Shown here: piece by piece, positions 655 through 62,909 of the stretch
How positions within the stretch are numbered: position 1 is the stretch's first letter
Layout of the letters: each line of letters opens with the position of its first letter
Assembly (NCBI GenBank): GCA_028288485.1
Contig: JAQBNO010000137.1
Coordinates: 1 to 64,000, forward strand
Source: Segetibacter sp.
Lineage (GTDB): Bacteria > Bacteroidota > Bacteroidia > Chitinophagales > Chitinophagaceae
Reading direction: 5' to 3'
DNA length: 64,000 nt
The notes under the pieces: model-generated
Databases searched by the model: none
What the model was told of the DNA's origin: nothing
The model's input: the letters and a program-made list of their open reading frames with translations, nothing else
Translations under genes and position numbers: made by a program

Positions 655-1263
655 CCAACATTAATTAGAAATAAAGACGCAGTTTAAATTTTCCACTTTC
701 AAATAGTGCCCGGAAGCTGCATTTGTTTTCATTCACCATATCAACGAAGCTAAAATTTCTTTTACATATAACAGTCCGTGACTTCTACGCGAGCATCAGA
801 TTAAACATCTATCAGTTTTATTAAAAATACTTTATACAATCATACAAGTACATTCATACCCTGCGCATTGGGTGAAAGTCGTATTCAAATCGGTAAGTGA
901 TGGGTAAGCAGGTGCGAGAGAACACTTTACTTTGTTTCCTCCTAGTACCGTCGTCTTCATCTTCTGTAATTTCACAGCCTTTAACATCAAAATTCTATGT
1001 CTGGTGATTCTACTTTGCACCATCAGCGAGGGTAATTGATTTAGGTTTTTATACAAACGGATCCTTATTCCACTTGCCAAAATAGATTTTTTGCAATAGC
1101 GTTATAAGGGCATGGTCGTTCGACCCTTCGCAATGAAACTTTCAACGTTAGAAAGTAGACAAAGCAACAAAAACTAAAGCCGCCATTAGTACTTCAGCTA
1201 AAGTGCTTGCGACGCAACGATGATGCCTGCCCGTACTGAAGTTCGTATCACATAAAATAAAAT
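655..1263. other. Intergenic region without a supported gene
   Basis: About 600 bases. An 82-codon minus-strand frame (832-1080) has no family resemblance and is probably chance. The right part holds one copy of the dispersed CAACGATG repeat (1203-1222). I see no terminator or RNA gene. Confidence 0.5.
1203..1222 (+). repeat. Dispersed intergenic repeat, copy 1 (partial)
   Basis: Contains GCGACGCAACGATG, the conserved core of the repeat family found 18 times in this window. Only the core is recognisable here. Confidence 0.6.
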
Positions 1264-2706
1264 TTGAAAGCGCTTATAAGAGAACTTACTTTCGAAATTC
1301 TTTTAAGGGCATACATGTTCATTGTTAAAGTAACTATACCAATGCAATGGTGGATTAAATATAAAAGGTTGGTAGAATCCAATACCCTTGCAAAAGCAGA
1401 TCCTGAAATTCGCGGTCTTGCCTATTGGCGCGACAGACTTTTTACAAACATTCTTCTCTATTTACTACCGGTAAGCCTGGTAGCTCTTGTTCCGGGGGTA
1501 GTGATGTCGGTTAAAGATAACGTTCCGTTATTGGCAGTGTATGATATTTTTATAGCCATAGTTATTGGTGTCATTACTTTTAACCGCAGCTTCTCATTAG
1601 CCGCACGAAAAACCTTGATTGTTATTTGCCTGTACCTGTTGTCTGTGATCCTGCTCGTTTATCTGGGTGCTTTAGGTCCGGGCTTGCTATACCTCTTTGG
1701 CCTTACCATTTTTATCACACTCATATTTTCAGTATCTGTCGCCTGGTTGTCAATAGCAATCAATACCGTCATTGTAATCATCTCCGCGTTAATCATTTAC
1801 TTTAAACACCCTGGAACTGCCTTGCCTCAATTATACTCACTCGGACCGTGGATCGCCGTCTCCTCAAACCTGCTCTTCCTGAGCGTGGTTGTAGTAGCGT
1901 CACTAAATCTATTGTTTAATGGTCTTGAAGCATCGATTCTTAAAGCAAACCGTCTGCAAAACGAATTGCGTGAAGAGAGCAAATCGCTGGAAAGAGCTCT
2001 TTCTTTGATGGAAACAAAAAACCGGGAACTCGAGCAATTTGCGTATATAGCATCGCACGATTTGCAGGAGCCTTTAAAAACAATCAGTAATGTGGTAAAC
2101 ATTTTTGAAGACCAATACAAAGGCAGGTTGGATAACGATGCAGTCACTTACCTCAGCTTTCTTTCGTTGTCTGCTGAACGGATGAGATTATTGATCACCG
2201 GGCTGCTCGATTATGCAAGGATCGGTAAAGAAGGAGAGATGGAACTTGTAAACTCGCAGGTTCTCTTACAGGAGCTGATCAGTGACCTGGATATGCTGAT
2301 TACCGAATCAAGAGCAAATATTTTTATAGGAAAAATGCCTGCTTTGCCAGCCTACCGCCTCGAGTTAAAACAGTTGTTTCAAAATTTAATTAGTAATGCT
2401 ATAAAATTCAGGCAGCCGGGCGGGCAAGTTGAAGTAAGAATTTGCGCACAGGAAGAGAATGACTGCTGGACATTTTCAGTAAAAGACAATGGAATTGGAA
2501 TCGGCGAGAAATTTCATAAGAAGATTTTTATGATCTTTAAAAGATTGCATGCGCGATCAAAATATGAAGGCTCGGGAATAGGTCTTTCCCATTGTAAAAA
2601 GATCGTTGAATTACATCACGGGAAAATCTGGGTTGAATCTGTTGCCAATGAAGGAAGTACCTTTTATTTCACCATACCAAAAAATGGCGGCGTCAATGCA
2701 AAATAA
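1264..2706 (+). CDS. Membrane-bound sensor histidine kinase
   Basis: A 480-aa hybrid of an N-terminal membrane sensor (about six hydrophobic segments between residues 55 and 225), a short coiled coil (about 225-255) and a C-terminal kinase. The HisKA phospho-acceptor is H265 in ASHDLQEPLK. The ATPase domain shows the N box (LFQNLISNAIKF), G1 (DNGIGIG) and G2 (GSGIGLSHCKKIV). The first possible start is TTG at 1264; ATG codons at 1315 and 1342 are alternatives. The stop overlaps the start of the following response regulator, so the two are translationally coupled and probably form one signalling pair. The stimulus is unknown. Confidence 0.93.
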   Translation: MKALIRELTFEILLRAYMFIVKVTIPMQWWIKYKRLVESNTLAKADPEIRGLAYWRDRLFTNILLYLLPVSLVALVPGVVMSVKDNVPLLAVYDIFIAIVIGVITFNRSFSLAARKTLIVICLYLLSVILLVYLGALGPGLLYLFGLTIFITLIFSVSVAWLSIAINTVIVIISALIIYFKHPGTALPQLYSLGPWIAVSSNLLFLSVVVVASLNLLFNGLEASILKANRLQNELREESKSLERALSLMETKNRELEQFAYIASHDLQEPLKTISNVVNIFEDQYKGRLDNDAVTYLSFLSLSAERMRLLITGLLDYARIGKEGEMELVNSQVLLQELISDLDMLITESRANIFIGKMPALPAYRLELKQLFQNLISNAIKFRQPGGQVEVRICAQEENDCWTFSVKDNGIGIGEKFHKKIFMIFKRLHARSKYEGSGIGLSHCKKIVELHHGKIWVESVANEGSTFYFTIPKNGGVNAK

Positions 2707-3112
2707 ATTAAACTGCGTACTGCTTGTAGACGATGATGAGATAACCAATTTTTTACAAAAGCATGTCATATTGCGCACAGGCATTGCCCGTAATATCCAT
2801 ATTGCCGAATCGGTGAGGGATGGGATTGACATTGTAAAGGAATTTGAAGGTTCTGAAAACCCGGAACTCATTTTTCTCGATCTGAACATGCCGGGTTTAA
2901 CCGGGTGGGATTTTATTGAAGAGTTCAAAACGGTTAGAGAAACTTACGGTAAAAAAAGCGTTGTAATTATTTTAACTGCTTCTGCAAATCCTGATGATGA
3001 AAAAAAAGCGTCCACACTTGAAGATATTAGTGAATACCGGAGCAAGCCTTTAACCGATGTTATGGTGAACGAAATTGTTGAAAAATATTTTGGAGTTAGC
3101 GCTGGAATATAA
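2696..3112 (+). CDS. Single-domain response regulator (Rcp1-like receiver)
   Basis: A stand-alone CheY-like receiver of 138 aa without an output domain. The acidic pocket is VDDDE (residues 11-15), the phospho-acceptor is D62 in IFLDLNMPG, and the conserved Thr (ILTAS) and Lys (RSKPL) follow. I place the start at the ATG at 2696, inside the last codons of the kinase gene; ATG 2684 is also possible, and longer frames to 2606 would merely duplicate kinase sequence. The overlap suggests co-translation with the kinase. As a lone receiver it probably acts through protein contact rather than DNA binding. Confidence 0.92.
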   Translation: MQNKLNCVLLVDDDEITNFLQKHVILRTGIARNIHIAESVRDGIDIVKEFEGSENPELIFLDLNMPGLTGWDFIEEFKTVRETYGKKSVVIILTASANPDDEKKASTLEDISEYRSKPLTDVMVNEIVEKYFGVSAGI

Positions 3113-3430
3113 TCACTGACATCTGAAGCGCTTGCCGTTTTGAATTTATTCGTCGTTCGAATAAAATGATCAACCGGGGATAATCTTTTTTTTGCGGGAC
3201 GAGCAGGAACGCTTCATGCAGCTTTCGTTGTGTCACTCACTTCAGCCGTATAACTCCTATGTACAGTCTCCAATCGCAGCCGGCAAGTGATCCATTTACA
3301 ATTATCCTTCATATTCTAATCAAATGTTGTTTGTAATTTAGCCTCTCTTTTCAATCTTTTTAATTAACCCATAGTAGTCTTAACCACCATAGCAGTATTC
3401 CTCAGAATAATTTCCAACCCCATTGGAAAT
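3113..3430. other. Intergenic region; repeat copy and hidden 5' end of the transporter gene
   Basis: Holds one copy of the dispersed repeat (3222-3244). Bases 3368-3430 are open in the frame of the downstream transporter and encode what looks like its first membrane helix (see that entry). No other gene is seen. Confidence 0.55.
3222..3244 (-). repeat. Dispersed intergenic repeat, copy 2
   Basis: Minus-strand copy with the TCGTTGTGTCACTCACTT form of the core (the GAGTGACACAACGA flavour). Confidence 0.6.
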
Positions 3431-4249
3431 GTGTTTCAAAAGCAGCTTACAACTACAGGCAACCACCCCTTAGTGGTTAATTTTATCACCTACCTGGCCC
3501 TAAGTTTCGTTTGTTTGTTGGGGGCATTTAATGTTAGCTGGTCCGAATTGTCGGCAGAATTCTGGATCTATTCAATTGCAGGAGGAATGGTAGGCGCTTT
3601 GGGAAACGCATTTTTAGTAAAGGCATTACAAGGTGGCGATCTATCTGTACTTGGCCCTATAAATTCTTACAAATCAGTCGTAGGAATGATAGCCGGGATA
3701 ATTCTTCTTGCCGAGATCCCATCTGTTTGGGGACTGGTGGGCATATTATTAATTATATACGGAAGTTATTTCGTGTTAGATACTACCGAGGATAAATTTT
3801 CATGGGCGCTTTTACAACGAAAGGAAATCCAGTTCCGGCTTTGGGCGTTGATCTTAACAGCTATAGAAGCAGTATTCGTCAAAAAAGTAATTTTAGCTTC
3901 ATCCACTGTTGTTTCCTTTATAAGCTGGTGTTGGTTTGGTGCAATTTTTTCTTTTTGCCTCCTGTTTGTGTATCGGCTGAATGCAAGAAATGAATTAAAA
4001 AAGGTAAACTCTTCAAGCTTTAATAAATATGCATTACTGGTAATTTGTATTGGAACAATGCAGTTCACTACAAACTATGTTTTCAGCAACATGCCCGTAG
4101 GTTATGCCTTGTCATTATTCCAGTTGTCCACAATCGTAAGTGTACTACTGGGTCACCGAATATTTAAAGAGCAGGGTATAGGCAAGAAACTGTTGGGTTC
4201 GGCAATAATGATCATCGGTTCGGTCGTTATTATCCTCCTGAAGAATTAA
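3431..4249 (+). CDS. EamA/DMT-superfamily membrane transporter
   Basis: A 272-aa polytopic membrane protein, about nine to ten hydrophobic helices in two homologous halves, as in drug/metabolite transporters of the EamA type. Motifs include GALGNAFLVKALQGGDLS and LGPINSYKSVVGMI in the first half and PVGYALSLFQLSTIVSVLLG in the second. Substrate unknown. The first ordinary start codon is GTG 3431, but the frame stays open upstream to a stop at 3365-3367 and encodes VVLTTIAVFLRIISNPIGN, which looks like the missing first helix. No ATG, GTG or TTG precedes it; the natural start may be ATA at 3371 or the start may be mutated. Confidence 0.88.
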   Translation: MFQKQLTTTGNHPLVVNFITYLALSFVCLLGAFNVSWSELSAEFWIYSIAGGMVGALGNAFLVKALQGGDLSVLGPINSYKSVVGMIAGIILLAEIPSVWGLVGILLIIYGSYFVLDTTEDKFSWALLQRKEIQFRLWALILTAIEAVFVKKVILASSTVVSFISWCWFGAIFSFCLLFVYRLNARNELKKVNSSSFNKYALLVICIGTMQFTTNYVFSNMPVGYALSLFQLSTIVSVLLGHRIFKEQGIGKKLLGSAIMIIGSVVIILLKN

Positions 4250-4307
4250 TAGACTTAAATTTGGGAGTAGCAGATATGAGAATGCGGGTGGAATAAAACA
4301 GTCGAAA

Positions 4308-4709
4308 CTACTTTCTTGCTTGATAAGCCTTTCTTAAGGTAATTTCCTTGAACGTTTTTACTCCAGTCTTACGTAATCTCAACACTCTCCCGTTCAAAAA
4401 AAGGACCTTATATTTTTCTCCGTTCGATAAAGTAAGGCTGCTGTCACTCCCGAGTTCGAAAGTTAAATTATGAGACTGCTCAGGATAACGGTTAATATAT
4501 TTCGCCGTCTTATCGTCCTTCAATTGAATCTGTAACGGTAAGTAATAAGTTTTCTTTTTCTTATAAATTTCAAACCAATTCCCCGTCATCAGCGAATCAA
4601 GAACCTGCGACTTTACGGAAGGCTGTAGTAAGAGTAAGGCAATTGCAAGGAAAAAACTTTTAAGGGCATTTCCAAAAAGAGCATTTTGAAACCTTGATAA
4701 CTTTTCCAT
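4308..4709 (-). CDS. Exported small protein, candidate immunity protein for the adjacent amidase
   Basis: With the ATG at 4709 the product is 133 aa and starts MEKLSRFQNALFGNALKS followed by a hydrophobic stretch (FFLAIALLLLQPSVKS), a good Sec signal peptide. The mature part appears beta-rich with many Lys, Tyr and Leu. The gene overlaps the 3' end of the Tae4-like gene by 50 bases on the same strand. Export to the periplasm and coupling to an amidase toxin fit an immunity role, but the protein does not look like the helical Tai4 family, so this is inference from context. A TAAATTTG motif (4713-4720, minus) ten bases ahead of the start could be an internal promoter element. A longer frame from 4820 would lack the signal peptide at its N-terminus. 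Confidence 0.72.
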   Translation of the reverse strand: MEKLSRFQNALFGNALKSFFLAIALLLLQPSVKSQVLDSLMTGNWFEIYKKKKTYYLPLQIQLKDDKTAKYINRYPEQSHNLTFELGSDSSLTLSNGEKYKVLFLNGRVLRLRKTGVKTFKEITLRKAYQARK

Positions 4710-5172: not shown

Positions 5173-5617
5173 AATCTGATTTGACTGTTTTTTGAGTGAT
5201 AATGTGGTTTGAAGAAGAGCTTATAGCTACGGTGTATTAATTACAAGAAACAGGTTTATTGGCAAAAATGCAAACTCACAGTTTCGGGTTCGAAGCTTTT
5301 AACGCATCAAATATTCCAATTAACATTTTAAGCCGTTTACCTGATAATGTCTTCTTTGCTGAATAAAATACTCCACGTACAAGGGAGTGACACAACGATG
5401 ATGAATAGTATTCAGATGCTGGTCAATAAAAAATAAAACCGCGGATAACAACCTGCACTAAAAAGAAATGGGGCGCACACTGTTGGAAAACCCCGTACGA
5501 AAACAATAATTTTAAAACATAACTGTTCGTGAAACCGTTATTTTTTTCCGGCAGAATAAAAATATTGAGCATAAAGGTTTAAAAAATTATATCTTAAGTG
5601 CTTTAAAAGTATAAAAA
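5173..5617. other. Divergent intergenic region
   Basis: 445 bases between the divergent effector and hydrolase genes. It contains a repeat copy (5377-5400). Otherwise AT-rich with no supported gene. Confidence 0.5.
5377..5400 (+). repeat. Dispersed intergenic repeat, copy 3
   Basis: Clear 24-base core: GTACAAG then GGAGTGACACAACGATG (the GAGTGACACAACG flavour). Confidence 0.75.
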
Positions 5618-6787: not shown

Positions 6788-6833
6788 TAATTGGAAATAG
6801 AAACCATTATATTGCCGCTTAAAAAGCGCCGAT

Positions 6834-7139: not shown

Positions 7140-7316
7140 AAGAAAAAATCACTAAAACGTATCTTGCTTAACTTTCAGCACCGATCTATTTCTGCAGTTA
7201 TTTGTAAACAGCCCCCCAGGTTTATTAAGTATATGACGTAGAATAACAAAGTAATCCTTTAAATCCTTTATTGCTCAGTGTTACCGTGTGTAAAAGTGCA
7301 TTAAAATGGGAGAAAA

Positions 7317-7348: not shown

Positions 7349-7379
7349 CCGAAGTTTTCCTCTACCAAAATATACTAAA

Positions 7380-7649: not shown

Positions 7650-7668
7650 TCGCCGCTCATAATATAAC

Positions 7669-9694: not shown

Positions 9695-9820
9695 GTATAA
9701 TTATATATTTGGAGTGCAAAGAAAACAAAAAGTAACGGTTGAAAAACATCGATCTTCAACACCAGTTCTGAAGAAGGGTATAAATGCCTTTTGGTTGCAA
9801 GCTAAATAACCTTCATGAAA

Positions 9821-9838
9821 CATCGTTGCGTCGCATTC
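9821..9838 (-). repeat. Dispersed intergenic repeat, copy 4 (partial)
   Basis: Core only, CATCGTTGCGTCGCATTC, reverse of the GCGACGCAACGATG form. Confidence 0.6.
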
Positions 9839-9889
9839 CGTTCGTCTATTGTTTCGCTATTCGGCTTTGCCCATGCTACATCTGGTCGT

Positions 9890-12646: not shown

Positions 12647-13040
12647 AAGTTGCTTTTGGTATACCTAATCAAAAAAAATACCGTTAATTCTATAAACAAC
12701 ATGAAAATTTGCCTGCTTCCAAATCCGGATAAAAAGACTGTTTTTAACAAAACCAGCTTTCACCTGAGTAAATTTCACCCTTAGTTATATGAAGATCATG
12801 CGGTAAAGTATTTGCAGCAAGGGTAATTAGCAAAAAGTGGAACACTTAATGTTAAATTATAATCTACACTTAATTCAAATAATGTAAAGACTGTACACCC
12901 TAAATTTGTAATAATAATGTTGCACGCTCATTTACGACCTGCCGGTTGAAGTGTGCGACGCAACGATGTTGCAAGAAGCGATAAAGGTGGCTACATAGAA
13001 AAACTTTCGCTATTTATCGCATTCGAAAAAAGTACCAATA
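12647..13040. other. Intergenic region upstream of icmF
   Basis: About 390 bases with one repeat copy (12951-12968). No cobalamin riboswitch-like box or other gene recognised. Confidence 0.5.
12951..12968 (+). repeat. Dispersed intergenic repeat, copy 5 (partial)
   Basis: Core GTGTGCGACGCAACGATG; the left GTACAAG is degenerate. Confidence 0.65.
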
Positions 13041-16439: not shown

Positions 16440-16769
16440 CAAGTAATGATTGTAAAACGCAGGGCTGCTTAATTACGTTTTCAAAAGATTTTCCAGCACA
16501 AAATCTAAATAAATGTTTTCTTTTATGCTCCAAACAACTGATTTCTTTTGAACATAGTTGCCACGCTCGCTTGTACTGTAACCCATTATTCACCCTGGCA
16601 GTTTTTACCCTGAGCCTGCCGAAGGGCCACACACTTATACCGCACAACCTTATCAACCTTTCAACTGGTTAACCGAAAACCTTATGTTTAACTATTCAGC
16701 CTTCCTTTGGTTTTTTCAATTAAATTGCCACTCTTTCAAAACTTTCGTTAGGCGCAGGCTTCCTATCTG
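16440..16769. other. Intergenic region with composite repeat
   Basis: 330 bases, including the composite repeat 16556-16630. No gene supported. Confidence 0.5.
16556..16630 (-). repeat. Composite dispersed repeat, copy 6 plus CCCTTCG element
   Basis: AGTTGCCACGCTCGCTTGTAC (16556-16576) is the GCGAGCGTGGCAAC flavour of the main repeat. It is joined to TTTTTACCCTGAGCCTGCC and GAAGGG. The whole 75 bases are matched, inverted, at 33511-33590. Confidence 0.75.
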
Positions 16770-20679: not shown

Positions 20680-21048
20680 CTGTCGAAACAATAGAGTAAA
20701 TAACTGAAAGGGAACTGGAAGTACTGAAAAGACAAGTTCCGGATGAACGTAAAAAAGAATTGTTTCAGAAAGCACTAAGAAAAATATTTATCACCCATAA
20801 AAATAAAAGCGTCTTGGGGTGTTAAAACTTCTTGTTGTAGCAGTAATAAAAGCATAATGTGGCTACCAACATCCGATCGTATAGCGTCATCGTTGCGTCG
20901 CAATACGTTTATCGGCAAACCCAAATGCGGCTTCAGCCTTTATTACCACAGGTAAAAAAAGATATTCTACATAATGCGAATGGCAGGATTTTTTATCGAA
21001 AGGCTTGAGAGTTTTTAATTCCACATTAATAAATAAAAACAAGTATTT
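20680..21048. other. Intergenic region with coding debris and a repeat copy
   Basis: A frame from 20704 to 20823 encodes VPDERKKELFQKALRKIF and nearby residues but has no start codon and a stop just upstream; it may be gene debris from the lost injection-system locus. A dispersed repeat copy lies at 20888-20904. Confidence 0.4.
20888..20904 (-). repeat. Dispersed intergenic repeat, copy 7 (partial)
   Basis: CATCGTTGCGTCGCAAT, minus-strand core. Confidence 0.6.
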
Positions 21049-21243: not shown

Positions 21244-21315
21244 CCACCAATTTCTTCAGCTATACATTTTTTTCGCTGCTTTCAGCTTCGTGCATCGCTT
21301 CGTACCGAACAAAAA

Positions 21316-21373
21316 GTATAAGAGTGCGACGCAACGATGTTTATAGTAGCAGTACAGCCGGGTACAAAAAGAA
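21316..21373 (+). repeat. Dispersed intergenic repeat, copy 8 (full length)
   Basis: Core GTATAAGAGTGCGACGCAAC then GATG, about 15 variable bases, and the distal GTACAGCCGGGTACAAAAAG. It matches the copy at 45443-45500 over nearly its full length. Confidence 0.85.
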
Positions 21374-22779: not shown

Positions 22780-23931
22780 CTATCCCCTGATTCCTACATG
22801 AGGCGTTGGGCTTTTTTCTGCAGTTACCTTTTTGCCATTCATTTCCGGCAGTGGCTCTCGTTCAGGTTCATTATCTACCAGCGTCCGGGTTTTAGGAAGA
22901 CAACCGGGATAGTTTTTCTTTATGAAAGTAATGAGGTTTTCACGAACATAGCATCTCAGGTCGAATGCATCTCCTGAATTTGCTGCACTCATCAAACAAC
23001 GCACCTCGATGCTACTATTCTTTGCATCTGTTACCTGCAAATTGCTTGCTCTTCTATCCCACAAATCTGAACTTTCTATCAGGCGCTTAAACTCCGTTCT
23101 CAATTTGTCAATAGGTGCAGTATAGTCAAGGTGCAGGAAAACGGTTCCTATAATCTCAGCCGAATTTCTTGTCCAGTTTTGAAATGGTTTTTGAAGAAAG
23201 TAATTGATCGGTAAAATCATCCTGCGTTGATCCCAGATATTCAGCACGACATACGTAAGCGTAATTTCCTCTACCCTTCCCCATTCACCTTCCACCACAA
23301 GCACATCATCAATACGTATTGGTTGCGTAAATGCTATTTGGAGGCCCGCAAGTATATTTCCAAGTGATTGTTGTGCAGCAAAGCCAATGATAATCCCACT
23401 TATTCCGACACCGGTAAGCAGGCCTGTCCCAAGCCGACGGAGGTTAGGAAAACTCATCAAAATGGCGCAGCCTGTAAGAATGATAATGATTGAAACGACC
23501 ATTTTTTTAAGAAACTGTAGCTGGGTTCGTATTTTTCTTGCCTTCAGGTTATCCTTAACGCTCAAATCATAGTTATGCATTATGATATCCTGGAAAACCT
23601 GCACAGTGCCAATTAATAATACAGCAAACGATATGATGAGAAGTATTGCTGTTATACGATCAACAATATTAAGTTCCTCCCTGGTAAGATGCATAAAAGG
23701 CATCATGAGGTTGAAAACAAATAACGGCAGAAAAAGCGCTACCGGCTTTCCCAGCCTGTTTAATATCGATCTGAACAGGGAATATTCGTTTGCCTGTATT
23801 GAATATCGTTTAAATAATAAAGACAGTACCCATTTAAAAATTAATCCTATTAAAAGAGCAAGAGCTGTGATCATTGCATTCCAGGCAAGTGGTGGAAGGG
23901 AGTCAAACTGCTTCAAAACATTTTCGAACAT
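22780..23931 (-). CDS. MscS-family mechanosensitive ion channel
   Basis: A 383-aa inner-membrane protein with about five N-terminal helices and the MscS core: the pore-lining helix (GVGISGIIIGFAAQQSLGN in part), GLQIAFTQPIRIDDVL, and the beta domain with GEWGRVEEITLTYVVL and NWTRNS. Such channels open under membrane tension to release solutes during hypo-osmotic shock. The C-terminal tail after residue 345 is polar and charged. Start ATG 23931. It stands alone between convergent DUF763 and a same-strand isomerase upstream. Confidence 0.93.
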   Translation of the reverse strand: MFENVLKQFDSLPPLAWNAMITALALLIGLIFKWVLSLLFKRYSIQANEYSLFRSILNRLGKPVALFLPLFVFNLMMPFMHLTREELNIVDRITAILLIISFAVLLIGTVQVFQDIIMHNYDLSVKDNLKARKIRTQLQFLKKMVVSIIIILTGCAILMSFPNLRRLGTGLLTGVGISGIIIGFAAQQSLGNILAGLQIAFTQPIRIDDVLVVEGEWGRVEEITLTYVVLNIWDQRRMILPINYFLQKPFQNWTRNSAEIIGTVFLHLDYTAPIDKLRTEFKRLIESSDLWDRRASNLQVTDAKNSSIEVRCLMSAANSGDAFDLRCYVRENLITFIKKNYPGCLPKTRTLVDNEPEREPLPEMNGKKVTAEKSPTPHVGIRG

Positions 23932-27913: not shown

Positions 27914-27973
27914 ATTTTTTGGGAAACCGGCTGTAGTTTTTATTGCATCTGTGGTTGTGTCACTCACTTGTAC
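27914..27973 (-). repeat. Dispersed intergenic repeat, copy 9 (full length)
   Basis: TTTTTTGGG and CCGGCTGTAG at its left (distal) end and GTTGTGTCACTCACTTGTAC as core at its right end. Confidence 0.75.
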
Positions 27974-28167
27974 AGTTGGTTTTAGTGGCGTCGCGAAAGG
28001 GGAATACTCTTATTTGTCTTAATTCTTTTATGGTAATGTTATTTATTACCCGTTTAACCATTCACCATCATTGCCGTTGGCTCAAGATTGTATTTGCCGT
28101 AAAAAGTATAGGGTTATAGAGAAGAAACAGAAACAATTATCGTCTCAGGAGGAGTGCCGTCAAAACA

Positions 28168-28186: not shown

Positions 28187-28254
28187 AAATACTTTCGGGT
28201 CTGCGATTTTCTATAAACACGAAGCCCAGGGGCTTAAGTAAACAACATTGATCC

Positions 28255-28300
28255 ACATTCACCTTTCCCCATTCACTTTTCTCCATTCACCTCTTTCACC
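28255..28300. repeat. Degenerate tandem CCATTCAC units
   Basis: Three to four imperfect units of about 14 bases (CATTCACCTTTCC, CCATTCACTTTTCT, CCATTCACCTCTTT) end just before the DUF4249 stop codon. Confidence 0.55.
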
Positions 28301-29085: not shown

Positions 29086-29147
29086 CAAAGTGAAACTACG
29101 GCGGGATAGAAAATGGTGGTTGGCCTTCGGCGAATAAAGTAGTTGCC

Positions 29148-29210
29148 GTACAAGTGAGTGACACAACGGAAGCCGAATGAAGTTAAAAAGCCGGCCCCAA
29201 AAAAAAGAAC
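29148..29210 (+). repeat. Dispersed intergenic repeat, copy 10 (full length)
   Basis: GTACAAGTGAGTGACACAAC with GGAAGCC, then AAAAAGCCGGCCCCAAAAAA. It sits in the gap between the receptor and its DUF4249 partner. Confidence 0.85.
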
Positions 29211-33368: not shown

Positions 33369-33494
33369 AAAGGTGTTGGTCTTTAAGCTGCTAATTTAAA
33401 CATCTTTCAACGCCGGCGCATGGTTGGAGGAAAACAATTTCGAGGAGCTTTGTTCTTTTTAAAATATTGGGCAAAAATTACAGGTACAGGTGTA

Positions 33495-33550
33495 CGACCC
33501 TTCGACTAGCTCAGGGCACCCTTCGGCAGGCTCGGGGTAAAAACGGCTAG
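33495..33550. repeat. CCCTTCG/GCTCAGGG palindromic repeat
   Basis: CCCTTCGACTAGCTCAGGG followed by CCCTTCGGCAGGCTCGGGG and TAAAAAC. It joins the repeat copy at 33569 to make a composite also found inverted at 16556-16630. Confidence 0.7.
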
Positions 33551-33568
33551 GTTGAGTAATTTGTTACA

Positions 33569-33631
33569 GTACAAGCGAGCGTGGCAACGGAAGCCCAATT
33601 ACTGACTGTTGCCGGCCCACAAGAAAAAAAC
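33569..33631 (+). repeat. Dispersed intergenic repeat, copy 11 (full length)
   Basis: GTACAAGCGAGCGTGGCAAC with GGAAGCC and the distal GCCGGCCC then an A-run. This is the GCGAGCGTGGCAAC flavour. Confidence 0.85.
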
Positions 33632-41543: not shown

Positions 41544-41583
41544 TTGTTTAACAACGGTCATTAGTGCTTCATAGAGATATAAC

Positions 41584-41647
41584 CGTAGAAGAGTGCGACG
41601 CAAGAGAAGCTAAATTGGAGTAATGAAGCCAGGCCCAAAAAAAAGAA
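41584..41647 (+). repeat. Dispersed intergenic repeat, copy 12 (full length)
   Basis: GTAGAAGAGTGCGACGCAAG core and distal GCCAGGCCC followed by AAAAAAAAGAAC. Core and distal ends are conserved; the middle differs. Confidence 0.8.
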
Positions 41648-44479: not shown

Positions 44480-45319
44480 TTATCCTAAAGCCACTCTCTT
44501 AAATTCCAGCACCTTCAGTTCACTATCAACACTCTTCAAATATTCAGCAACTGATTTACTGTTATCTTTTACGAAGGGTTGTGCAGCTAATGTGTTTTCT
44601 TTAAAGAACGCATTTAGTTTACCATCAGCAATTTTCGAAATCATTTCTGCAGGTTTGCCAGCCATTTTAGGATCAGCAGCAATTTGTTCAGTAACAATTG
44701 CTCTTTCTCTTTCAATAGTTTCAGCAGGTACAGCCGAAGGATCAACAGCCAAAGGGTTCATAGCTGCAATTTGCATGGCAACATCTTTACCTGCATCAGG
44801 AGCAACATGGTTTAAAGCAACCAAAACGCCCATACGGTGTGCACCATGTATATAAGATGCAACGTAAGGAGCTTCAATTCTTTCGAAACGGCTTACGGCT
44901 ATTTTTTCGCCGATAGAAGCAAGTTTGTCGTTAATCATGTCTGAAACCTTGGCCCCGTTAACGGTAACTTCGTTTAGTTCTTCAACACTTTTTACATTGT
45001 TACCAATAGCAGCATCAGCTACGCTGGTAGCAAAAGCAACGAAATCGGCATTCTTGCTTACAAAGTCAGTTTCGCAACTAATGGTAAGAACAATACCTGT
45101 TTTATTATCGAAAGTAGTACGGGCTACAACCACACCTTCTTTCGCTTCACGGTCGCTACGCTTTGCAGCAACTTTCTGACCTTGTTTACGTAACCAGTCA
45201 ATAGCACCTTCAAAATCGCCGTTGGTTTCGGTAAGTGCTTTACGGCAATCCATCATACCGGCTCCTGTTGCCTGGCGCAATTTATTAATATCCTGGGCTG
45301 TAATTGTTGCAGTTGACAT
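44480..45319 (-). CDS. tsf: Translation elongation factor Ts
   Basis: A 279-aa full-length EF-Ts, the guanine-nucleotide exchange factor of EF-Tu. The N-terminal UBA-like part has INKLRQATGAGMMDCRKAL and the TDFVSKN core contact motif follows (SCETDFVSKNADF). It is the last gene of the rplM-rpsI-rpsB-tsf operon, followed by a strong terminator. A 50-base hairpin and a dispersed repeat copy separate it from rpsB. Confidence 0.98.
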   Translation of the reverse strand: MSTATITAQDINKLRQATGAGMMDCRKALTETNGDFEGAIDWLRKQGQKVAAKRSDREAKEGVVVARTTFDNKTGIVLTISCETDFVSKNADFVAFATSVADAAIGNNVKSVEELNEVTVNGAKVSDMINDKLASIGEKIAVSRFERIEAPYVASYIHGAHRMGVLVALNHVAPDAGKDVAMQIAAMNPLAVDPSAVPAETIERERAIVTEQIAADPKMAGKPAEMISKIADGKLNAFFKENTLAAQPFVKDNSKSVAEYLKSVDSELKVLEFKRVALG

Positions 45320-45363
45320 AGTATATAATTTGAAAATGAATTAATTTGAAAATTGAAAATGAA

Positions 45364-45413
45364 AACCACATAGATCCATAGCACATGTTATGTGTCTATG
45401 TGCCTATGTGGTT
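45364..45413 (-). repeat. Long imperfect hairpin between rpsB and tsf
   Basis: AACCACATAG at the left end pairs with CTATGTGGTT at the right; inner parts (CATAG, CACAT / ATGTG, CTATG) pair again. It lies 45 bases upstream of the tsf start in the operon transcript. Confidence 0.65.
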
Positions 45414-45442
45414 ATTTTATAAAGAGCCAAAACGTTTTGTCA

Positions 45443-45500
45443 GTACAAGAGTGCGACGCAACGATGTAAAATAGTAGTCGTACAGCCGGGCTCAAAAAAG
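45443..45500 (+). repeat. Dispersed intergenic repeat, copy 13 (full length)
   Basis: GTACAAGAGTGCGACGCAAC with GATG, then GTACAGCCGGGCTCAAAAAA. Nearly identical to copy 8 at 21316. Confidence 0.88.
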
Positions 45501-45564: not shown

Positions 45565-46464
45565 TTATCTGGGGCCACCCGGACCACTTGGTCTGCGACT
45601 TGCTCCACCCGGAACACGACGCTTTTGAGGACCACCGGGACCGCCTGGTCCAGCTTGTTGTCCACGACCTCTTCCACCACGTGCAGCTTCACCTTCGGCT
45701 TCAGCTTGTAAACGGGCAGCTCTTTTTTCAGCTTCATTGTCGGTATCTTCAACCTCATCGTCTTTTGCGGCGTGACGTTCGGCAAGACCTTCAGCAATAG
45801 CAGCAGCGATGTAGTTGGTTACGATTGCGACAGATTTAGTAGCATCGTCGTTTGCAGGAATAGAGAAGTCAACTTTGTTAGGATCGCAGTTGGTATCTAC
45901 CATACCAAAAGTTGTAATGCCAAGGCGTTTTGCTTCAGCAAGAGCAATGTGCTCGTGCCCGATATCAACAAGGAATAAAGCAGCCGGGGCACGACCTAAC
46001 TGGGCGATACCACCTAAAACTTTCTCCATTTTGTCTTTGTCGCGGGTAAGTGTTAAACGCTCTTTTTTAGTAAGGCTCTCAGCACTGCCGTCGTTCAACA
46101 TTTTTTCGATATTCTGCATTTTCTTCACGCTCTTACGAACCGTGTTGAAGTTCGTAAGCATGCCGCCTAACCAACGTTCGGTTACGAAAGGCATGTTTAT
46201 TTTCTTGGCAGCTTCGGTAACAATTTCTTTTGCTTGTTTCTTGGTAGCAACAAACATGATCTTTTTACCGCTCTTAGCAATACTTTTCATAGCTGCAGCA
46301 GCTTCCTGCAAACCTTCTACGGTTTTGTTAAGGTCGATAATGTGAATGCCTTTTTTTTCAGCGAAGATGTAAGGCAACATCTTTGGGTTCCACTTCTTCT
46401 TCAGGTGACCAAAGTGTACACCGGCCTCCAGAAGTTGCTGTTGTAGTGAAGTGTTATTTTCCAT
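45565..46464 (-). CDS. rpsB: 30S ribosomal protein S2
   Basis: A 299-aa S2, longer than the roughly 240 aa of E. coli. The core is standard (LEAGVHFGHLKKKWNPKM, FVTERWLGGMLTNF, PAALFLVDIGHEHIALAEA, VDTNCDPNKVDFSIPANDDA). The extra C-terminal tail after residue 230 is acidic, then Gly/Arg/Pro-rich (GGRGRGQQAGPGGPGG), as often found in Bacteroidota. S2 joins the 30S subunit late and is needed for mRNA binding with S1. Confidence 0.98.
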   Translation of the reverse strand: MENNTSLQQQLLEAGVHFGHLKKKWNPKMLPYIFAEKKGIHIIDLNKTVEGLQEAAAAMKSIAKSGKKIMFVATKKQAKEIVTEAAKKINMPFVTERWLGGMLTNFNTVRKSVKKMQNIEKMLNDGSAESLTKKERLTLTRDKDKMEKVLGGIAQLGRAPAALFLVDIGHEHIALAEAKRLGITTFGMVDTNCDPNKVDFSIPANDDATKSVAIVTNYIAAAIAEGLAERHAAKDDEVEDTDNEAEKRAARLQAEAEGEAARGGRGRGQQAGPGGPGGPQKRRVPGGASRRPSGPGGPR

Positions 46465-47594: not shown

Positions 47595-47682
47595 GATTTT
47601 AAGTACTTATTTTTTATGCTACCTTTGTAACTACTTGATTTTCAATCAAAATTTTGTTGTTAAATTTTAGTTGTGGTTTGGT

Positions 47683-47731
47683 TACCGGCATTTTTGCTAC
47701 TATTCGGCATCGTTGTGTCACTCACTTGTAC
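47683..47731 (-). repeat. Dispersed intergenic repeat, copy 14
   Basis: ACCGGCA at the distal end and CATCGTTGTGTCACTCAC plus TTGTAC as core. Confidence 0.8.
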
Positions 47732-47861
47732 ACATTCCGGTAATGGAGCTGCTAACGATGAGGGAGTTAAAGGCAAGAAAAACTGAAGTTGGATTAGCTC
47801 CCGTTAGGCTTTTGGAAGTTGTAGTAACTTAAAATGGTACAATAATTATATAGTTTTTTCC

Positions 47862-53992: not shown

Positions 53993-54593
53993 ATTTTAAT
54001 ACATAAAAAAATTAAAAAATAATACATGGGACTAATAAGAAAGAGATTTTGGTAGCCGGCATATTGCTGCTATATGGCATTCGTTGCGTCGCACACTTGT
54101 ACTATTGTAGGTATATCCTGCTTTTACTTCTAACAATAAAAGCATTGTTCTTCTCCTTTAGTTTATTTCGCATTAATAAAGGAAAAAGTATTTTAAAAAC
54201 GGTTTATAGATCCTACATACTCAACTTCTCCAACTTCCTGCCTTCTTCACAATTGTCCGCCCACACATTATCTCTCCTTCTGCCAAACAAAACGTTATGG
54301 CTTCCCTAACTTCAAAAATATGATTTAAAAAGAATAAAAACTCATAAAGGTTGCAATAGCATTGATAATCAGCTTTTTTTCTTCCCCGAAAGCAACTTTA
54401 CAACCGAATATTAAAGGAAAAAAGGATTGAAATAACCCGGTCCAACGGTTGAATTTGAAGGAGAATAGCGAAAGGGTCGATAGACTATACCAGAGAAAAT
54501 GTTCAAAAAGTCAACGACAATCGCCTTTCCAATTGTTGTTTCCAGGTCAGGCAGGATATAGAAAAGGATGTAATTAAATTTAAACGAAAGTAA
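53993..54593. other. Intergenic region with repeat copy
   Basis: 600 bases. A full repeat copy lies at 54051-54102. An 86-codon plus-strand frame (54049-54309) begins within the repeat and is not credible. Confidence 0.55.
54051..54102 (-). repeat. Dispersed intergenic repeat, copy 15 (full length)
   Basis: GGTAGCCGGCATATTGCTGC at the distal end and TTCGTTGCGTCGCACACTTG then TAC at the core end. Confidence 0.85.
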
Positions 54594-57054: not shown

Positions 57055-57115
57055 TTTTAAGGATTTACTATTAATAAGACAAAAAGAAGGAGGTAAAGTT
57101 TAGTAAAGATAAAAA

Positions 57116-58534: not shown

Positions 58535-58559
58535 TACTTCAAAAGTAAATTAAAAAGCT

Positions 58560-59261
58560 TTATAAGGTATAGCCTAAAGTGGCGATACTCAAGGTAGTTC
58601 CACGAACTTTTAATAGTTCTGATCCACACGCTTCCAATGATGCACCGGTTGTTACCAAATCATCTACCAGCATTATGTGTTTGTTTTCAAGTGCTTCCGG
58701 TTGTGAAACTGCAAAAACACCGTCCATATTTTCCCACCTGGTAATTCGACCCCGCTGTGTTTGTGTTTCGGTATATACCTTTCTAATGACTGCGTTATTT
58801 AAAACCGGTTTCTTCCAGGCCGATGTTATTCCCTCGCATATCACTACTGACTGGTTATAGCCTCTTTTCTTTTCGCGTCGCGGATTTAGCGGCAAGGGCA
58901 CTAAAGCATCGACACCTGAAAAGCGTTCGTTATTCATAAGGAATTTCGACAGCAGCTTTCCGAAATAGAACCCAATCTCTTTATTGCCTTTATACTTCAA
59001 TCGATGCAGCAAGGTTTGGATTAATGAATTTTTAGTAAAAAAATATCCTGCTGCTGCACTCCTTACAGGAATTCTTCCATAAAAAATTTTTTCTACCGGG
59101 TTGTGTGGCAGATAAAAGAAGTTCGTTTCGGGAAGTTCGGATAAACAGTGCAGGCACAACAGTTGTTTGTCATTTAGTATATCAGAGCCACATCCTGTAC
59201 AAACATGCGGAAAGAAGAGATGAACCAAATCCTGAAACGAAGTTTGTATACCTGACATCAA
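58560..59261 (-). CDS. ComF family phosphoribosyltransferase-like protein
   Basis: A 233-aa protein with a Zn ribbon at the N-terminus (C21-x2-C24 and C36-x2-C39 in HVCTGCG and LCLHC) and a type I phosphoribosyltransferase domain with the PRPP motif IMLVDDLVTTGAS and PLPLNPRREKKRGYNQS. In competent bacteria ComFC acts in natural transformation and in DNA uptake and processing. Whether this bacterium is competent is not shown. It lies downstream of radA, separated by a repeat copy, and could be co-transcribed. Confidence 0.92.
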   Translation of the reverse strand: MMSGIQTSFQDLVHLFFPHVCTGCGSDILNDKQLLCLHCLSELPETNFFYLPHNPVEKIFYGRIPVRSAAAGYFFTKNSLIQTLLHRLKYKGNKEIGFYFGKLLSKFLMNNERFSGVDALVPLPLNPRREKKRGYNQSVVICEGITSAWKKPVLNNAVIRKVYTETQTQRGRITRWENMDGVFAVSQPEALENKHIMLVDDLVTTGASLEACGSELLKVRGTTLSIATLGYTL

Positions 59262-59280
59262 TATAAATTTTTATCGTGAC

Positions 59281-59335
59281 GTTTTTTTGATACCAGCACT
59301 GGTTTTTATTGAATCACCGTTGCGTCGCAATCACT
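59281..59335 (-). repeat. Dispersed intergenic repeat, copy 16
   Basis: TTTTTTTGATACCAGCACTGG distal part (partly altered) and CCGTTGCGTCGCAATCACTT core. Confidence 0.7.
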
Positions 59336-59416
59336 TCATCCGCAAACCAATGGGCAGCTGCAGCTTTAATGGCTGGAACCCTTTTTTTGCACTTAAATAA
59401 TTCCTGGTTGTATATG

Positions 59417-60796
59417 TTAATTTACAAACAGCAGTTGATACACTTCCTGTACTTCCCCTACCGGTATCACCTTAATACCTGTTTTCTGGTTATCAAATCC
59501 TTTCTTATTGTATTTCGATACTATGATCTTTTCAAATCCCAGCTTTTCAGCTTCAGCTATTCGCTGTTCTATCCGGTTAACTGCCCGGATTTCACCATTT
59601 AGGCCAACTTCGCCGGCAAAACAAATCTTCTGGGGTAAGGGAACGTCTTCGAAACTACTCAGCAAAGCACAGATGACCGATAAATCAATCGACGGATCTT
59701 CTACTTTTAAGCCTCCGGCAATATTTACAAAAACATCTTTAATACCAAAATGAAAGCCGCCCCGTTTTTCAAGCACAGCAAGCAGTAATTGTAACCTTCT
59801 AAGATCGAAACCACTTACCGTTCGTTGAGGCGTGCCATATACGCTTTGTGTTACCAGCGCCTGCACTTCAATTAACAAAGGTCTTATTCCTTCCAGGGTT
59901 GCAGCAATGGCGCTACCGCTTAGTTGCTCTTCTTTTTGTGTAATTAATATTTCTGAAGGATTTGATACGCTTCTCATGCCGTCTCCGGTCATTTCGTAAA
60001 TGCCTAACTCTGCAGTACTTCCAAACCGGTTTTTTAGTGTTCGTAATATTCTATAAGCGTAATGACGGTCGCCTTCAAATTGAAGAACAGTGTCTACCAT
60101 ATGCTCTAAAATTTTTGGCCCTGCGATGCTTCCGTCTTTTGTGATATGTCCTATTAAAAAAACCGGCGTATCTGTTTCTTTTGCAAACCGTTGAAACTCT
60201 GCTGCACATTCTCTTATTTGCGATACACTTCCGGGAGAGGACTCTATAAAGTTAGATTGTAGCGTTTGAATTGAATCTACAATGACCAGTTGTGGACGAA
60301 GTTTTTTAATTTCCTGGAAAAGAACGTTTGTTGCAGTTTCTGTTAAAAGGTAAAAGTCGTCGTTAGAGGATTTTAGCCTGTCGGCTCTCATTTTTATTTG
60401 CTGCTCGCTTTCTTCACCGCTGATGTACAAAGTCCGAACGCCTTTCAGCTGCAGGCCGACCTGCAAAAACAACGTACTCTTTCCTATACCGGGTTCACCC
60501 GCCACTAATACAATACTTCCCGGAACAATGCCTCCACCTAAAACCCTGTTCAGCTCCCCGTCTGCTGTTAAAATACGGTCTTCTTCGGTAGCACTTACTT
60601 TGTTTAACAGGATCGTTTTCGTATTTCGTTTATCGCCATGGTAATCTTTCCAGCCATTTTCATTTTTTTCGGTTCCTTTCGACAATACTTCTTCAGAGAA
60701 AGTATTCCATGAACTGCACGAAGGGCATTTTCCCAGCCATTTTGCACTTTCATACCCACAATTACTACAGAAATAAGCTGTCTTTACTTTGCTCAT
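59417..60796 (-). CDS. radA: DNA repair protein RadA
   Basis: A 459-aa full-length RadA, a RecA-like helicase that aids branch migration in recombination. It has the C4 zinc finger (C10, C13, C24, C27), Walker A GEPGIGKST, the RadA-specific KNRFG (in LKNRFGSTAELGIYEM), and a C-terminal Lon-like domain (VNIAGGLKVEDPSIDL, LNGEIRAVNRIEQRI). Start ATG 60796. A hairpin with U-tract lies 74-100 bases upstream of the start on the same strand (60870-60896), which may control it. Confidence 0.97.
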   Translation of the reverse strand: MSKVKTAYFCSNCGYESAKWLGKCPSCSSWNTFSEEVLSKGTEKNENGWKDYHGDKRNTKTILLNKVSATEEDRILTADGELNRVLGGGIVPGSIVLVAGEPGIGKSTLFLQVGLQLKGVRTLYISGEESEQQIKMRADRLKSSNDDFYLLTETATNVLFQEIKKLRPQLVIVDSIQTLQSNFIESSPGSVSQIRECAAEFQRFAKETDTPVFLIGHITKDGSIAGPKILEHMVDTVLQFEGDRHYAYRILRTLKNRFGSTAELGIYEMTGDGMRSVSNPSEILITQKEEQLSGSAIAATLEGIRPLLIEVQALVTQSVYGTPQRTVSGFDLRRLQLLLAVLEKRGGFHFGIKDVFVNIAGGLKVEDPSIDLSVICALLSSFEDVPLPQKICFAGEVGLNGEIRAVNRIEQRIAEAEKLGFEKIIVSKYNKKGFDNQKTGIKVIPVGEVQEVYQLLFVN

Positions 60797-61167
60797 GCCC
60801 TAAAGGTAATTTTCAAAGTAATGCCAATGATAAAAGGAAGAAAAAGCAGTGGAGATAATCTAATTAAACAAAAAGGGCTGGCAAGAATGCCGGCCCTGTT
60901 ACTTACTAACCCATTAAATTCTGACACTAAATTACAAATATGACTCACATTTCAAAAATTATTTTTGACCGTGTGAATAACTTTTAAGGGTAAAAATCAG
61001 CTCAGATTGCTACAAACCGCCCGATAATTCGAAGCTCTCTCCTAAGTTTAAGACAATCTGTCTACGCATTATTCTTTCTGCGCCTTTCTGTCATGCCAGA
61101 TGGCGAGATGTGACAAATGAATGAATTGGAAGAAAATTTGCAATCACTCTTAAAAACACAAATAATC
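60797..61167. other. Divergent region between radA and the metallopeptidase gene
   Basis: Holds the minus-strand hairpin (60870-60896). No gene besides. An alternative start of the metallopeptidase lies at 61117. Confidence 0.5.
60870..60896 (-). terminator. Terminator-like hairpin in the radA leader
   Basis: GGGCTGGC / GCCGGCCC stem (one G-U pair) with a six-base loop and an A5 run on the plus strand, hence a U-tract in minus-strand RNA. No minus-strand gene lies upstream, so it is either an attenuator of radA or the end of a small RNA. Confidence 0.6.
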
Positions 61168-61854
61168 ATGTCATCTATATTTTTAATATCCCTCATTTTC
61201 CTCGGAATTAGTCTCCTGGTTTCGTCGATATTAAAAGGAAAATTTACTACTTATAGCCGAATTCCTTTACGAAACGGGATGTCGGGCAGAGAGGTAGCTG
61301 AAAAAATGCTGCGCGACAACGGGATTTATGATGTGAAAGTTACATCAGTCGAAGGCCACCTGACCGACCACTACAACCCGGCAAATAAAACTGTAAATTT
61401 AAGTGCAGATAATTATGTTGGGCAAAGTGTTGCTGCGGCCGCAGTGGCTGCCCACGAATGTGGGCATGCAGTTCAACACGCAAGGGCTTACCAGTGGTTA
61501 ACGTTACGCAGTACTTTGGTACCAATAGTGCAGTTCAGCAGCAATTTGGTTCAGTGGGTCTTGCTTGCAGGCATTATATTAATGCAGGTATTTCCCGGGT
61601 TGTTGCTTTTTGGTATTGCCTTATTTGCTGTCACCACATTGTTTGCCTTTATTACTTTACCGGTAGAATTTGATGCGAGCCGGAGAGCTTTAGTATGGTT
61701 AAATACTACAAACATTGCATCGGGCGAACAACATGATAAAGCCAAAGATGCTTTAAAATGGGCTGCAATGACTTACGTGGTAGCGGCAATTGCATCACTG
61801 GCTACTTTAGTACAATACATATTACTATTCCTTGGTAACAGGGACAGGGATTAA
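61168..61854 (+). CDS. Zinc metallopeptidase (YugP-like)
   Basis: From ATG 61168 the product is 228 aa, close to the family norm; a start at 61117 would give 245 aa. It has one N-terminal helix, the RIPLRNGMSGREVAEKML segment, the zinc motif HECGHAVQH (H96, H100) and three further helices (LVQWVLLAGIILMQVFPG and others). This is the neutral zinc metallopeptidase family YugP, an inner-membrane protease of unknown substrate. A GC-rich hairpin follows 100 bases on. Confidence 0.92.
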   Translation: MSSIFLISLIFLGISLLVSSILKGKFTTYSRIPLRNGMSGREVAEKMLRDNGIYDVKVTSVEGHLTDHYNPANKTVNLSADNYVGQSVAAAAVAAHECGHAVQHARAYQWLTLRSTLVPIVQFSSNLVQWVLLAGIILMQVFPGLLLFGIALFAVTTLFAFITLPVEFDASRRALVWLNTTNIASGEQHDKAKDALKWAAMTYVVAAIASLATLVQYILLFLGNRDRD

Positions 61855-61887
61855 TAAAGTAAAGCTTATGTTGCAAATTGAACATAA

Positions 61888-61938
61888 GTACAAGTGTGCG
61901 ACGCAAGAATGTTTAGTATTGTTTCAAAGCTGGAAACC
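61888..61938 (+). repeat. Dispersed intergenic repeat, copy 17
   Basis: GTACAAGTGTGCGACGCAAG core with ATG; the distal part is altered (AAAGCTGGAAACC). Confidence 0.75.
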
Positions 61939-61953
61939 AAATTACCGATACCT

Positions 61954-61976
61954 AGCCGGAGAAATCCGGCTTTTTT
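61954..61976 (+). terminator. Intrinsic terminator of the metallopeptidase gene
   Basis: AGCCGGA / TCCGGCT stem with a GAAA loop and a T6 run. It abuts the end of the convergent hydroxylase gene. Confidence 0.9.
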
Positions 61977-62770
61977 CATACCTGCTCTTTAACGATCGTT
62001 TTTGCGGTTTTTTCCTCAAACAGCGAGGTATATCGTGGGCTTTCGGTTCTTTTTAGTTTATCCCAAAAAGTAAAGTACAGGCCGAAGTTGTATTTAAATT
62101 GTTTGTGGTGCAACGAATGATGAGTAGCGCCGATCATCCACTTGCCGATAAAATGACGGTGAAAGTTAGCGGGGTAGGTTTCAATTTCAAGGTGATTGAT
62201 CACACTGCTAAAAGTCATTATGGTAAGTTGAAACAGCAACACATAAACATGCATAGGAAGAACCATGATCGTAAGCGGTAGAATAATTGCCTGCAAGAGA
62301 CCTTCAAGCGGGTGAAATGAAAATGCAGTCCAGGCGCTTGTGGTGTTGCTATCGTGATGAACCTTATGTAATAGCTTAAAAACCGACGGCCTGTGCATCC
62401 AACGGTGAAGCCAGTAATAATATGTTTCGTGAATAAACATCGACATTACAAGACTTACGGGCAGGTACCAAAAACCATATTCGTTTATGTCGGCATACAT
62501 ACGAGTGTGGCCTTTTTGCCAAAGAACGGCCGTTGCAGAACCGGCGAAGGCAAAAATCAAAGAAGTGAAGACCGACCACTTAACCTCCGTATTAAATTGC
62601 TTTATATCAACCGCTTTCTTCCCCAGCCTCCTGTTAAACCACTTGTCTTTAGCCCAAACATAAAACCACAAATGAAAGAAGGCAGCAATTAAAAAATACC
62701 TGCCCACCACTACAAGAAACATCAGTAGGGTAATTGCAAAAAAATTAACCGGGTTTAATAGATCAGGCAT
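61976..62770 (-). CDS. Sterol desaturase/fatty acid hydroxylase-family protein
   Basis: A 264-aa inner-membrane protein with about four helices and the histidine-rich motifs that hold a di-iron centre: HETYYYWLHRWMHR, LHKVHHDSNTT and HSLHHKQFKYNFG. Members hydroxylate or desaturate sterols, fatty acids or carotenoids. Substrate not determinable. The C-terminal end contains the charged TSLFEEKTAKTIVKEQV. It is followed upstream, on the same strand, by the RNase E/G gene across a repeat copy. Confidence 0.92.
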   Translation of the reverse strand: MPDLLNPVNFFAITLLMFLVVVGRYFLIAAFFHLWFYVWAKDKWFNRRLGKKAVDIKQFNTEVKWSVFTSLIFAFAGSATAVLWQKGHTRMYADINEYGFWYLPVSLVMSMFIHETYYYWLHRWMHRPSVFKLLHKVHHDSNTTSAWTAFSFHPLEGLLQAIILPLTIMVLPMHVYVLLFQLTIMTFSSVINHLEIETYPANFHRHFIGKWMIGATHHSLHHKQFKYNFGLYFTFWDKLKRTESPRYTSLFEEKTAKTIVKEQV

Positions 62771-62857
62771 AGACCGTTGCTTTTAAGAATGCTGTTTGCT
62801 TTGCCAACTTCCTTCCACTGCATTTGTTGTTGCAGTAAATAAACCTATTTTTCTTTT

Positions 62858-62909
62858 GTAGCCAGCTTCACGACTCTCACCAGGCTTGGGTTGCGTCGCA
62901 CACTTGTAC
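62858..62909 (-). repeat. Dispersed intergenic repeat, copy 18 (full length)
   Basis: TGTAGCCAGCTTCACGACTC at the distal end and GGTTGCGTCGCACACTTG then TAC as core. Confidence 0.8.

Follow-up and report, generated by a model that had tools for sequence, protein, structure and literature searches.

The window analysed here, a 64,000-nucleotide stretch from an assembly of the soil bacterium Segetibacter sp. (contig JAQBNO010000137.1), is dotted with 18 copies of a short dispersed intergenic repeat. An earlier note on this DNA had listed 18 positions for it, and all of them bear the core of the element, 9 on the forward and 9 on the reverse strand. Matches to the 16-mer GTGCGACGCAACGATG with up to 3 mismatches number 11 in the window against 0.22 expected, a count reached in 0 of 100 shuffles. 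Four core types are distinguished: A (AGTGACAC, 5 copies), B (TGCGACGC, 7 copies), C (AGCGTGGC, composite, 2 copies) and D (4 copies), the last being TTGCGACGC or ATGCGACGC preceded by a heptamer resembling GATGAACG or GATGAAGTG. The core had been said to start with GTACAAG, which is exact in 10 of the 18 copies and one base off in 2, a different heptamer standing there in the other 6; the length of about 60 bp given for the unit has to be raised to about 77 bp, since a left arm (positions -19 to -1, numbered from the G of GTACAAG) also belongs to it. Placement outside genes, claimed for all copies, holds for 17 of the 18 cores with respect to the gene calls, the one at 16566 falling inside a weak 38-codon call that is probably spurious. 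The copies are as follows, their ends being estimated from the family boundaries at -19 and +57:

1180..1256, forward strand: copy of type D
3189..3265, reverse strand: copy with type A core, GGCTGAAG replacing GTACAAG
5358..5434, forward strand: copy of type A
9787..9863, reverse strand: copy of type D
12926..13002, forward strand: copy with type B core, GGTTGAAG replacing GTACAAG
16519..16665, reverse strand: composite copy 16566, type C (outer end approximate)
20854..20930, reverse strand: copy of type D
21297..21373, forward strand: copy of type B
27916..27992, reverse strand: copy of type A
29129..29205, forward strand: copy of type A (profile match 29129-29206)
33465..33626, forward strand: composite copy 33579, type C, with two CCCTTCG hairpins within the insert (outer end approximate)
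41566..41642, forward strand: copy of type B
45424..45500, forward strand: copy of type B in the spacer between the S2 gene (45565-46464, reverse strand) and the EF-Ts gene (44480-45319, reverse strand), both identified with Pfam
47674..47750, reverse strand: copy 47731, type A
54045..54121, reverse strand: copy 54102, type B
59281..59357, reverse strand: copy 59328, type D
61869..61945, forward strand: copy 61888, type B
62852..62928, reverse strand: copy 62909, type B

Scans of the window with Rfam and for tRNA or tmRNA genes returned no match. No published description of the element was found in the open-access literature searched, and within that scope it is, as the earlier note had it, undescribed.

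The unit of about 77 bp consists of a left arm, the core GTACAAGNGNGYGACRCAACG with a GTGACAC or GCGACGC dyad, a right arm and a CAAAAA end. Its parts follow one another as left arm (GCTGAATA...ACA), GTACAAG, dyad, AACGATG, right arm (of the TTGAATAGTAG or GATGCTATGAAAA type) and GCCGGnnnCAAAAA, with conservation beginning at -19 and fading at about +57. The dyad is AGTGACAC in class A and TGCGACGC in class B, the two classes being represented by 69 and 68 copies in the genome of the window (G000; 6.4 Mb in 220 contigs), by 68 and 63 in its congener G001, and by 25 and 14 in Segetibacter aerophilus (G009); type D, in which GATGAACG or GATGAAGTG replaces GTACAAG, accounts for 63 copies at up to 4 mismatches in 1.63 Mb from three genomes. 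A set of 268 A and B copies gives a linkage of 0.94-1.0 bit among core columns 9, 11 and 15, meaning that mixtures of the two dyad classes are rare; core class also goes with the right arm, with no visible link to the left one. Left-arm similarity says almost nothing about right-arm similarity (Mantel r 0.03, p 0.09 in G000; 0.04, p 0.04 in G001; 0.15, p 0.01 in G009), and each arm's best matches are closer than those of column-shuffled copies. The element is thus modular in the manner of BOX, its left arm being nearly unlinked to the core and right arm, and composites occur. The idea that the two arms represent a target duplication was rejected, as they are almost unlinked; no alignable empty site was available for reading a target-site duplication, and no terminal inverted repeat was evident by eye in the consensus. 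We also discarded a hidden left extension of about 100 nt, since the composition of that flank reflects only the strand skew of neighbouring genes, and a protein-coding reading of the core, whose frames (judged by eye) break between types.

The RNA-level element proposed in the earlier note is not supported in the form of a structured RNA: RNAalifold applied to a 60-copy alignment found 0 conserved pairs on either strand, and the covariation of dyad columns 11 and 15 would leave a 3-base loop. For want of a conserved fold and of an Rfam match in the window, both a structured cis-regulatory RNA and a small RNA were rejected.

The 21-nt core GTACAAGNGNGYGACRCAACG, searched at up to 2 mismatches, has 971 matches in the genome of the window against 0 for a reversed-pattern control, a large excess over chance, and G001 reaches 1313 in 4.1 Mb. 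Matches were retrieved from 25 of 59 genomes, namely the own genome, 9 of 9 congeners (which include G003 and G008 and range from 4 copies in G007 to 1313 in G001), 14 of 26 other Chitinophagaceae and 1 of 23 genomes of other families, the last with a single match. A sequence-only profile, built from 60 copies of G000, G001 and G009 (so that G000 and G009 match by construction), detected the element in 70 of 117 Chitinophagaceae genomes and 61 of 100 genera, up to 38 candidates per genome being scored. Within a phylum-wide sample of 296 genomes, 18 match: 6 of 11 Chitinophagaceae, one of which has 1286 copies, and 12 of 285 others, each with one 2-mismatch match, which is about the control level. 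Among the samples searched, the element is confined to the Chitinophagaceae. An exact-pattern scan of genome contigs gave at least 106 stretches, those listed being titled Segetibacter, Ferruginibacter, Foetidibacter, Pinibacter, Chitinophagaceae, Bacteroidota/Bacteroidetes or Sphingobacteriales; a 35-base pattern had 0 matches in genome contigs and a 24-base pattern 0 in viral contigs. Copy numbers are patchy even within a genus, G012 having 0 profile matches and G134 at least 38, and we conclude that the element is dispensable. The same-genus pairs G012/G134, G015/G137 and G135/G013 each combine a genome with 0 or 1 profile matches and one with at least 38, which makes them natural comparisons for finding a gene that tracks the element.

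Placement relative to genes was assessed with our own open reading frame and hexamer calls on 856 kb of G000 and on samples of G009 and G001. The elements are only rarely inside called genes (3/155 in G000, 4/41 in G009 and 1/135 in G001, or 8/331 overall, 2 of the 8 lying in long, well scoring calls), and the same is true of loci not titled Segetibacter (1 of 88 copies), which bears out the intergenic placement originally reported. Given the genome-wide excess as well, neither of the two outcomes that the earlier note named as refuting its observation was seen. Convergent spacers hold 37 of 149 elements in G000, 32 of 124 in G001 and 5 of 37 in G009, against about 24, 29 and 3 expected from spacer length, and divergent spacers 15 of 149, 16 of 124 and 7 of 37, against about 36, 26 and 12. 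The median distance to a stop codon is 65, 41, 34 and 8 nt from the right end and 183, 99, 99 and 121 nt from the left end (G000, G001, G009 and 53 loci not titled Segetibacter, respectively). Within 170 nt of the stop in codirectional spacers, antisense copies number 56, 49 and 16 against 16, 20 and 11 sense-only ones. Of the pairs closer than 260 bp, 9 of 10 in G000, 17 of 19 in G001 and 1 of 4 in G009 stand back-to-back. An intrinsic-terminator role was rejected, since presence of the element is not associated with an intrinsic terminator; hairpins directly before the T-run exceed the shuffled level in G001 (19% of 57, 4% when shuffled) and do not in G000 (7% of 82, 11% when shuffled), and elements may partially overlap with terminators in G001.

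The fate of individual copies was followed in orthologous spacers located by synteny and not by the motif, loci fetched through the motif being excluded from the counts. The copy in the S2/EF-Ts spacer has a counterpart of unchanged strand in each of the 8 relatives compared, with 0, 0, 2, 0, 5, 6, 0 and 0 core mismatches in G001, G003, G004, G005, G006, G007, G008 and G009, where the best of 20 shuffles per spacer gives 6-7; it is also kept in G002, a locus that came from the motif search. Copy 54102 is found in 6 of 7 relatives with 3, 1, 1, 1, 1 and 1 mismatches and is absent in G004. Outside the window, four G000 sites were compared with G009: 1 is kept, 1 survives there as a simple copy where G000 has a composite, and 2 are not kept. 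Between G009 and G005, 6 copies are liftable, of which 4 are retained together with strand and class, and 3 more are not liftable. Kept copies at three sites, compared in 60 pairs that are non-independent, accept up to 6 core mismatches and include one G002 row from the motif search, have an identity of 0.91 in the core, 0.60 and 0.65 in the arms, and 0.65 and 0.62 in the flanks. The core thus changes more slowly than its surroundings at orthologous sites. That the arms drift like spacer DNA and the core does not is our main reason for thinking that the core is used.

Two further features of the S2/EF-Ts spacer deserve mention. In G007 (L142, G007:C108) the right arm is recognisable and the core reads GTGCAACGCATTGCAC, a perfect inverted repeat; we considered this sequence as a replacement motif in G007 and rejected it, its one match being the S2/EF-Ts site itself. 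At approximately 45347-45415 of the window, in the interval separating the element from the EF-Ts gene, lies a long inverted repeat (AACCACATAG...CTATGTGGTT), possibly an EF-Ts leader hairpin; sequences resembling CTATGTGGTT recur in spacers of G001, G005, G006, G008 and G009.

Some copies themselves contain other repeats. Those at 16519-16665 and 33465-33626 of the window hold palindromic repeats, CCCTTCGGCTTCGCTCAGGG and CTACGCTCAGTTCAA...TTGAACTGAGCGTAG, nested in the middle of the dyad; in the composite at 16519..16665, the left half of an element comes first, and the material inserted at that centre is a CCCTTCG..CTCAGGG hairpin with a second left unit. In 1.09 Mb of G000 we counted 49 cores whose dyad is split at its centre by a hairpin-type insert (between ...GYGA and CAACG...), 40 of them with a pairing partner and 32 with the left half of the element plus a CCCTTCG..CTCAGGG hairpin upstream, the insert measuring 54-101 nt. 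The samples of G001, G009 and G005 contain 4, 1 and 0 hairpin-insert cores and no full composites, which among the samples occur only in G000. Of 69 CCCTTCG..CTCAGGG hairpins in G000, 51 are preceded by the left half and 45 followed by the hairpin core, with neither in 7 cases. The G009 orthologue of composite C53_19946 is a simple copy. Whichever interpretation of the element holds, the nested palindromes provide a sharply defined case in which one repeat targets another at its centre. As a separate observation, a partly tandem 25-nt repeat resembling CATTCACCTTTCCCCA lies at 23273-23297 and 28247-28285 of the window.

In origin this is a dispersed repeat, with a core that appears to be under selection. 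We tentatively favour, with somewhat less than even confidence, the view that it is an old repeat whose core is under selection and probably serves as a DNA-binding site for a putative factor. According to this proposal, an intergenic family of about 77 bp would have spread through the Chitinophagaceae long ago as a non-autonomous repeat, and its 21-bp core may now be kept by purifying selection at part of the sites. The core (GTGACAC or GCGACGC dyad after GTACAAG) would be read in duplex DNA by a putative sequence-specific protein, which is the most economical reading because no fold is detected, the core is a dyad and both orientations are used; perhaps two related putative proteins are involved, given the coexistence of two core classes that seldom mix. 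The element is often found shortly after a stop codon, its right end facing the gene, and a protein bound there could insulate or stop transcription. Alternatively, such a protein could organise the chromosome, as bacterial interspersed mosaic elements (BIMEs) are thought to do. Almost unchanged even where its surroundings have drifted, the core looks like a protein docking site, albeit not a proven one, rather than plain genomic litter.

Several findings weigh on the other side. Copy 47731 is kept with at most 1 mismatch in 2 of 5 relatives, has lost one base in G009 and is decayed or absent in G006 and G007; copy 61888 is kept in 0 of 4, copy 62909 on the same strand in 0 of 7 (G001 has one on the other strand), and the type D copy 59328 in 1 of 8. 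The estimate of core conservation comes from only three sites, non-independent pairs and copies with up to 6 core mismatches. Copy numbers run from 4 to 1313 within Segetibacter, and a pair of same-genus genomes differs as much as 0 against at least 38; when orientation is scored over all codirectional spacers, the overall bias is weak (65/38, 45/33, 13/13 and 26/26), and no significant helical period was found in the conservation of the arms. Placement at gene ends and enrichment between convergent genes also fit tolerated parasites. The binding protein itself is putative, and an unusual parasite is a possible alternative.

That alternative, a purely parasitic, modular, non-autonomous repeat of BOX type or of the type of miniature inverted-repeat transposable elements (MITEs), moved by a lost or unrecognised enzyme, is the main rival and is plausible, if on the doubtful side. 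Gene ends would then be tolerated insertion sites, and re-insertion at preferred spots or gene conversion would keep the cores alike. It accommodates the patchy copy numbers, the lineage-specific copies, the back-to-back pairs of G000 and G001, and arms that behave as shared words combining almost freely across GTACAAG. Convergent enrichment is likewise seen for pneumococcal repeats and insertion sequence (IS) elements, and has been argued to fit parasites, according to the parts of PMC3049150 drawn on here. As the earlier note had stated, no transposase is seen beside the copies, and the missing mobiliser speaks against a parasite, as does the persistence of the core, with the same strand and class, at orthologous sites whose arms and flanks have diverged. 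The MITE-like origin raised in that note is possible, but the decay of dead copies does not account for a core fixed at orthologous sites. A special form of the binding-site proposal, in which the bound protein would block RNA polymerase arriving from the right end and the element would act as a polar terminator or insulator, draws on the short right-end distances to stop codons and on the excess of antisense copies within 170 nt of them. It is nonetheless unlikely: the orientation bias over all codirectional spacers is slight, presence of the element is not associated with the absence of an intrinsic terminator either, and the best kept copy sits between the S2 and EF-Ts genes, which commonly form one operon.

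We regard as very improbable a DNA uptake signal spread by biased uptake during transformation. A fixed asymmetric core, present in great numbers and set in weaker flanks, would suit such a signal, but copying fits better because the element is almost exclusively intergenic, about 77 bp long and endowed with shared arm words; a search of the open-access literature yielded nothing on uptake sequences in this group. Least credible of all is a repetitive extragenic palindromic (REP) element moved by a REP-associated tyrosine transposase (RAYT), the other origin put forward in the earlier note. High copy number, intergenic location and inverted pairs are all REP-like, yet the hypothesis fails two defining tests. 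No conserved hairpin was found on either strand, and RAYT genes do not track copy number: PF01797 (Y1) matches occur in 28 of 36 genomes and are lacking in G006 (138 copies) and G033 (203 copies), and G001, with its 1313 copies, has one match with three stops and one weak match. Nor are the copies concentrated near Y1 genes, as 31 loci around Y1 matches (94 kb) contain 8 loose core matches, some of them in coding sequence, and the 2-kb locus of the intact Y1 gene of the own genome contains no copies. A transposase that is unrecognised or since lost is a possible mobiliser.

Should the core prove to be a protein site, an entire bacterial family would possess a gene-end or chromosome-organising system that is undescribed and directly testable. 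At its boldest, and this we consider rather unlikely, the proposal would be of a chromosome-wide code of fixed 21-bp sites that lie at gene ends in Chitinophagaceae and fall into two classes that do not mix; putative related DNA-binding factors would read it and thereby insulate transcription units or organise the chromosome, and the sites would decay in species that lose the factors (G006 and G007 have 5-6 core mismatches at S2/EF-Ts). If the element is parasitic, it represents a very dense family of small repeats with a hairpin-free design and a mobiliser not yet recognised.

Among known systems, the pneumococcal repeats BOX, RUP and SPRITE come close, being, in the parts of PMC3049150 drawn on here, small, modular or A/T-ended, interspersed and intergenic, enriched between convergent genes, sometimes nested and, in the case of SPRITE, located near gene 3' ends. 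Compared with the same source, the Chitinophagaceae element differs from these predicted stem-loops in lacking a conserved fold, in its far higher copy number and in a fixed core kept at orthologous sites. With enterobacterial REP/BIME and RAYT-associated REPs it shares hundreds of intergenic copies and inverted pairs, as far as the portion of PMC3733652 used here describes them. Unlike REP/BIME, it has no palindromic hairpin, and two copy-rich genomes have no RAYT; the palindromic repeats nested inside its core in G000 look more like REPs. FtsK-orienting polar sequences (KOPS), matS and uptake signals are 8-13 bp long and are not almost exclusively intergenic. A KOPS-like replichore polarity was rejected by eye from 100 of 170 matches in one complete genome, G013, where runs on both strands lie either side of dnaA at 1.93 Mb. 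What the element has in common with KOPS, matS and uptake signals is a single conserved short site repeated hundreds to thousands of times.

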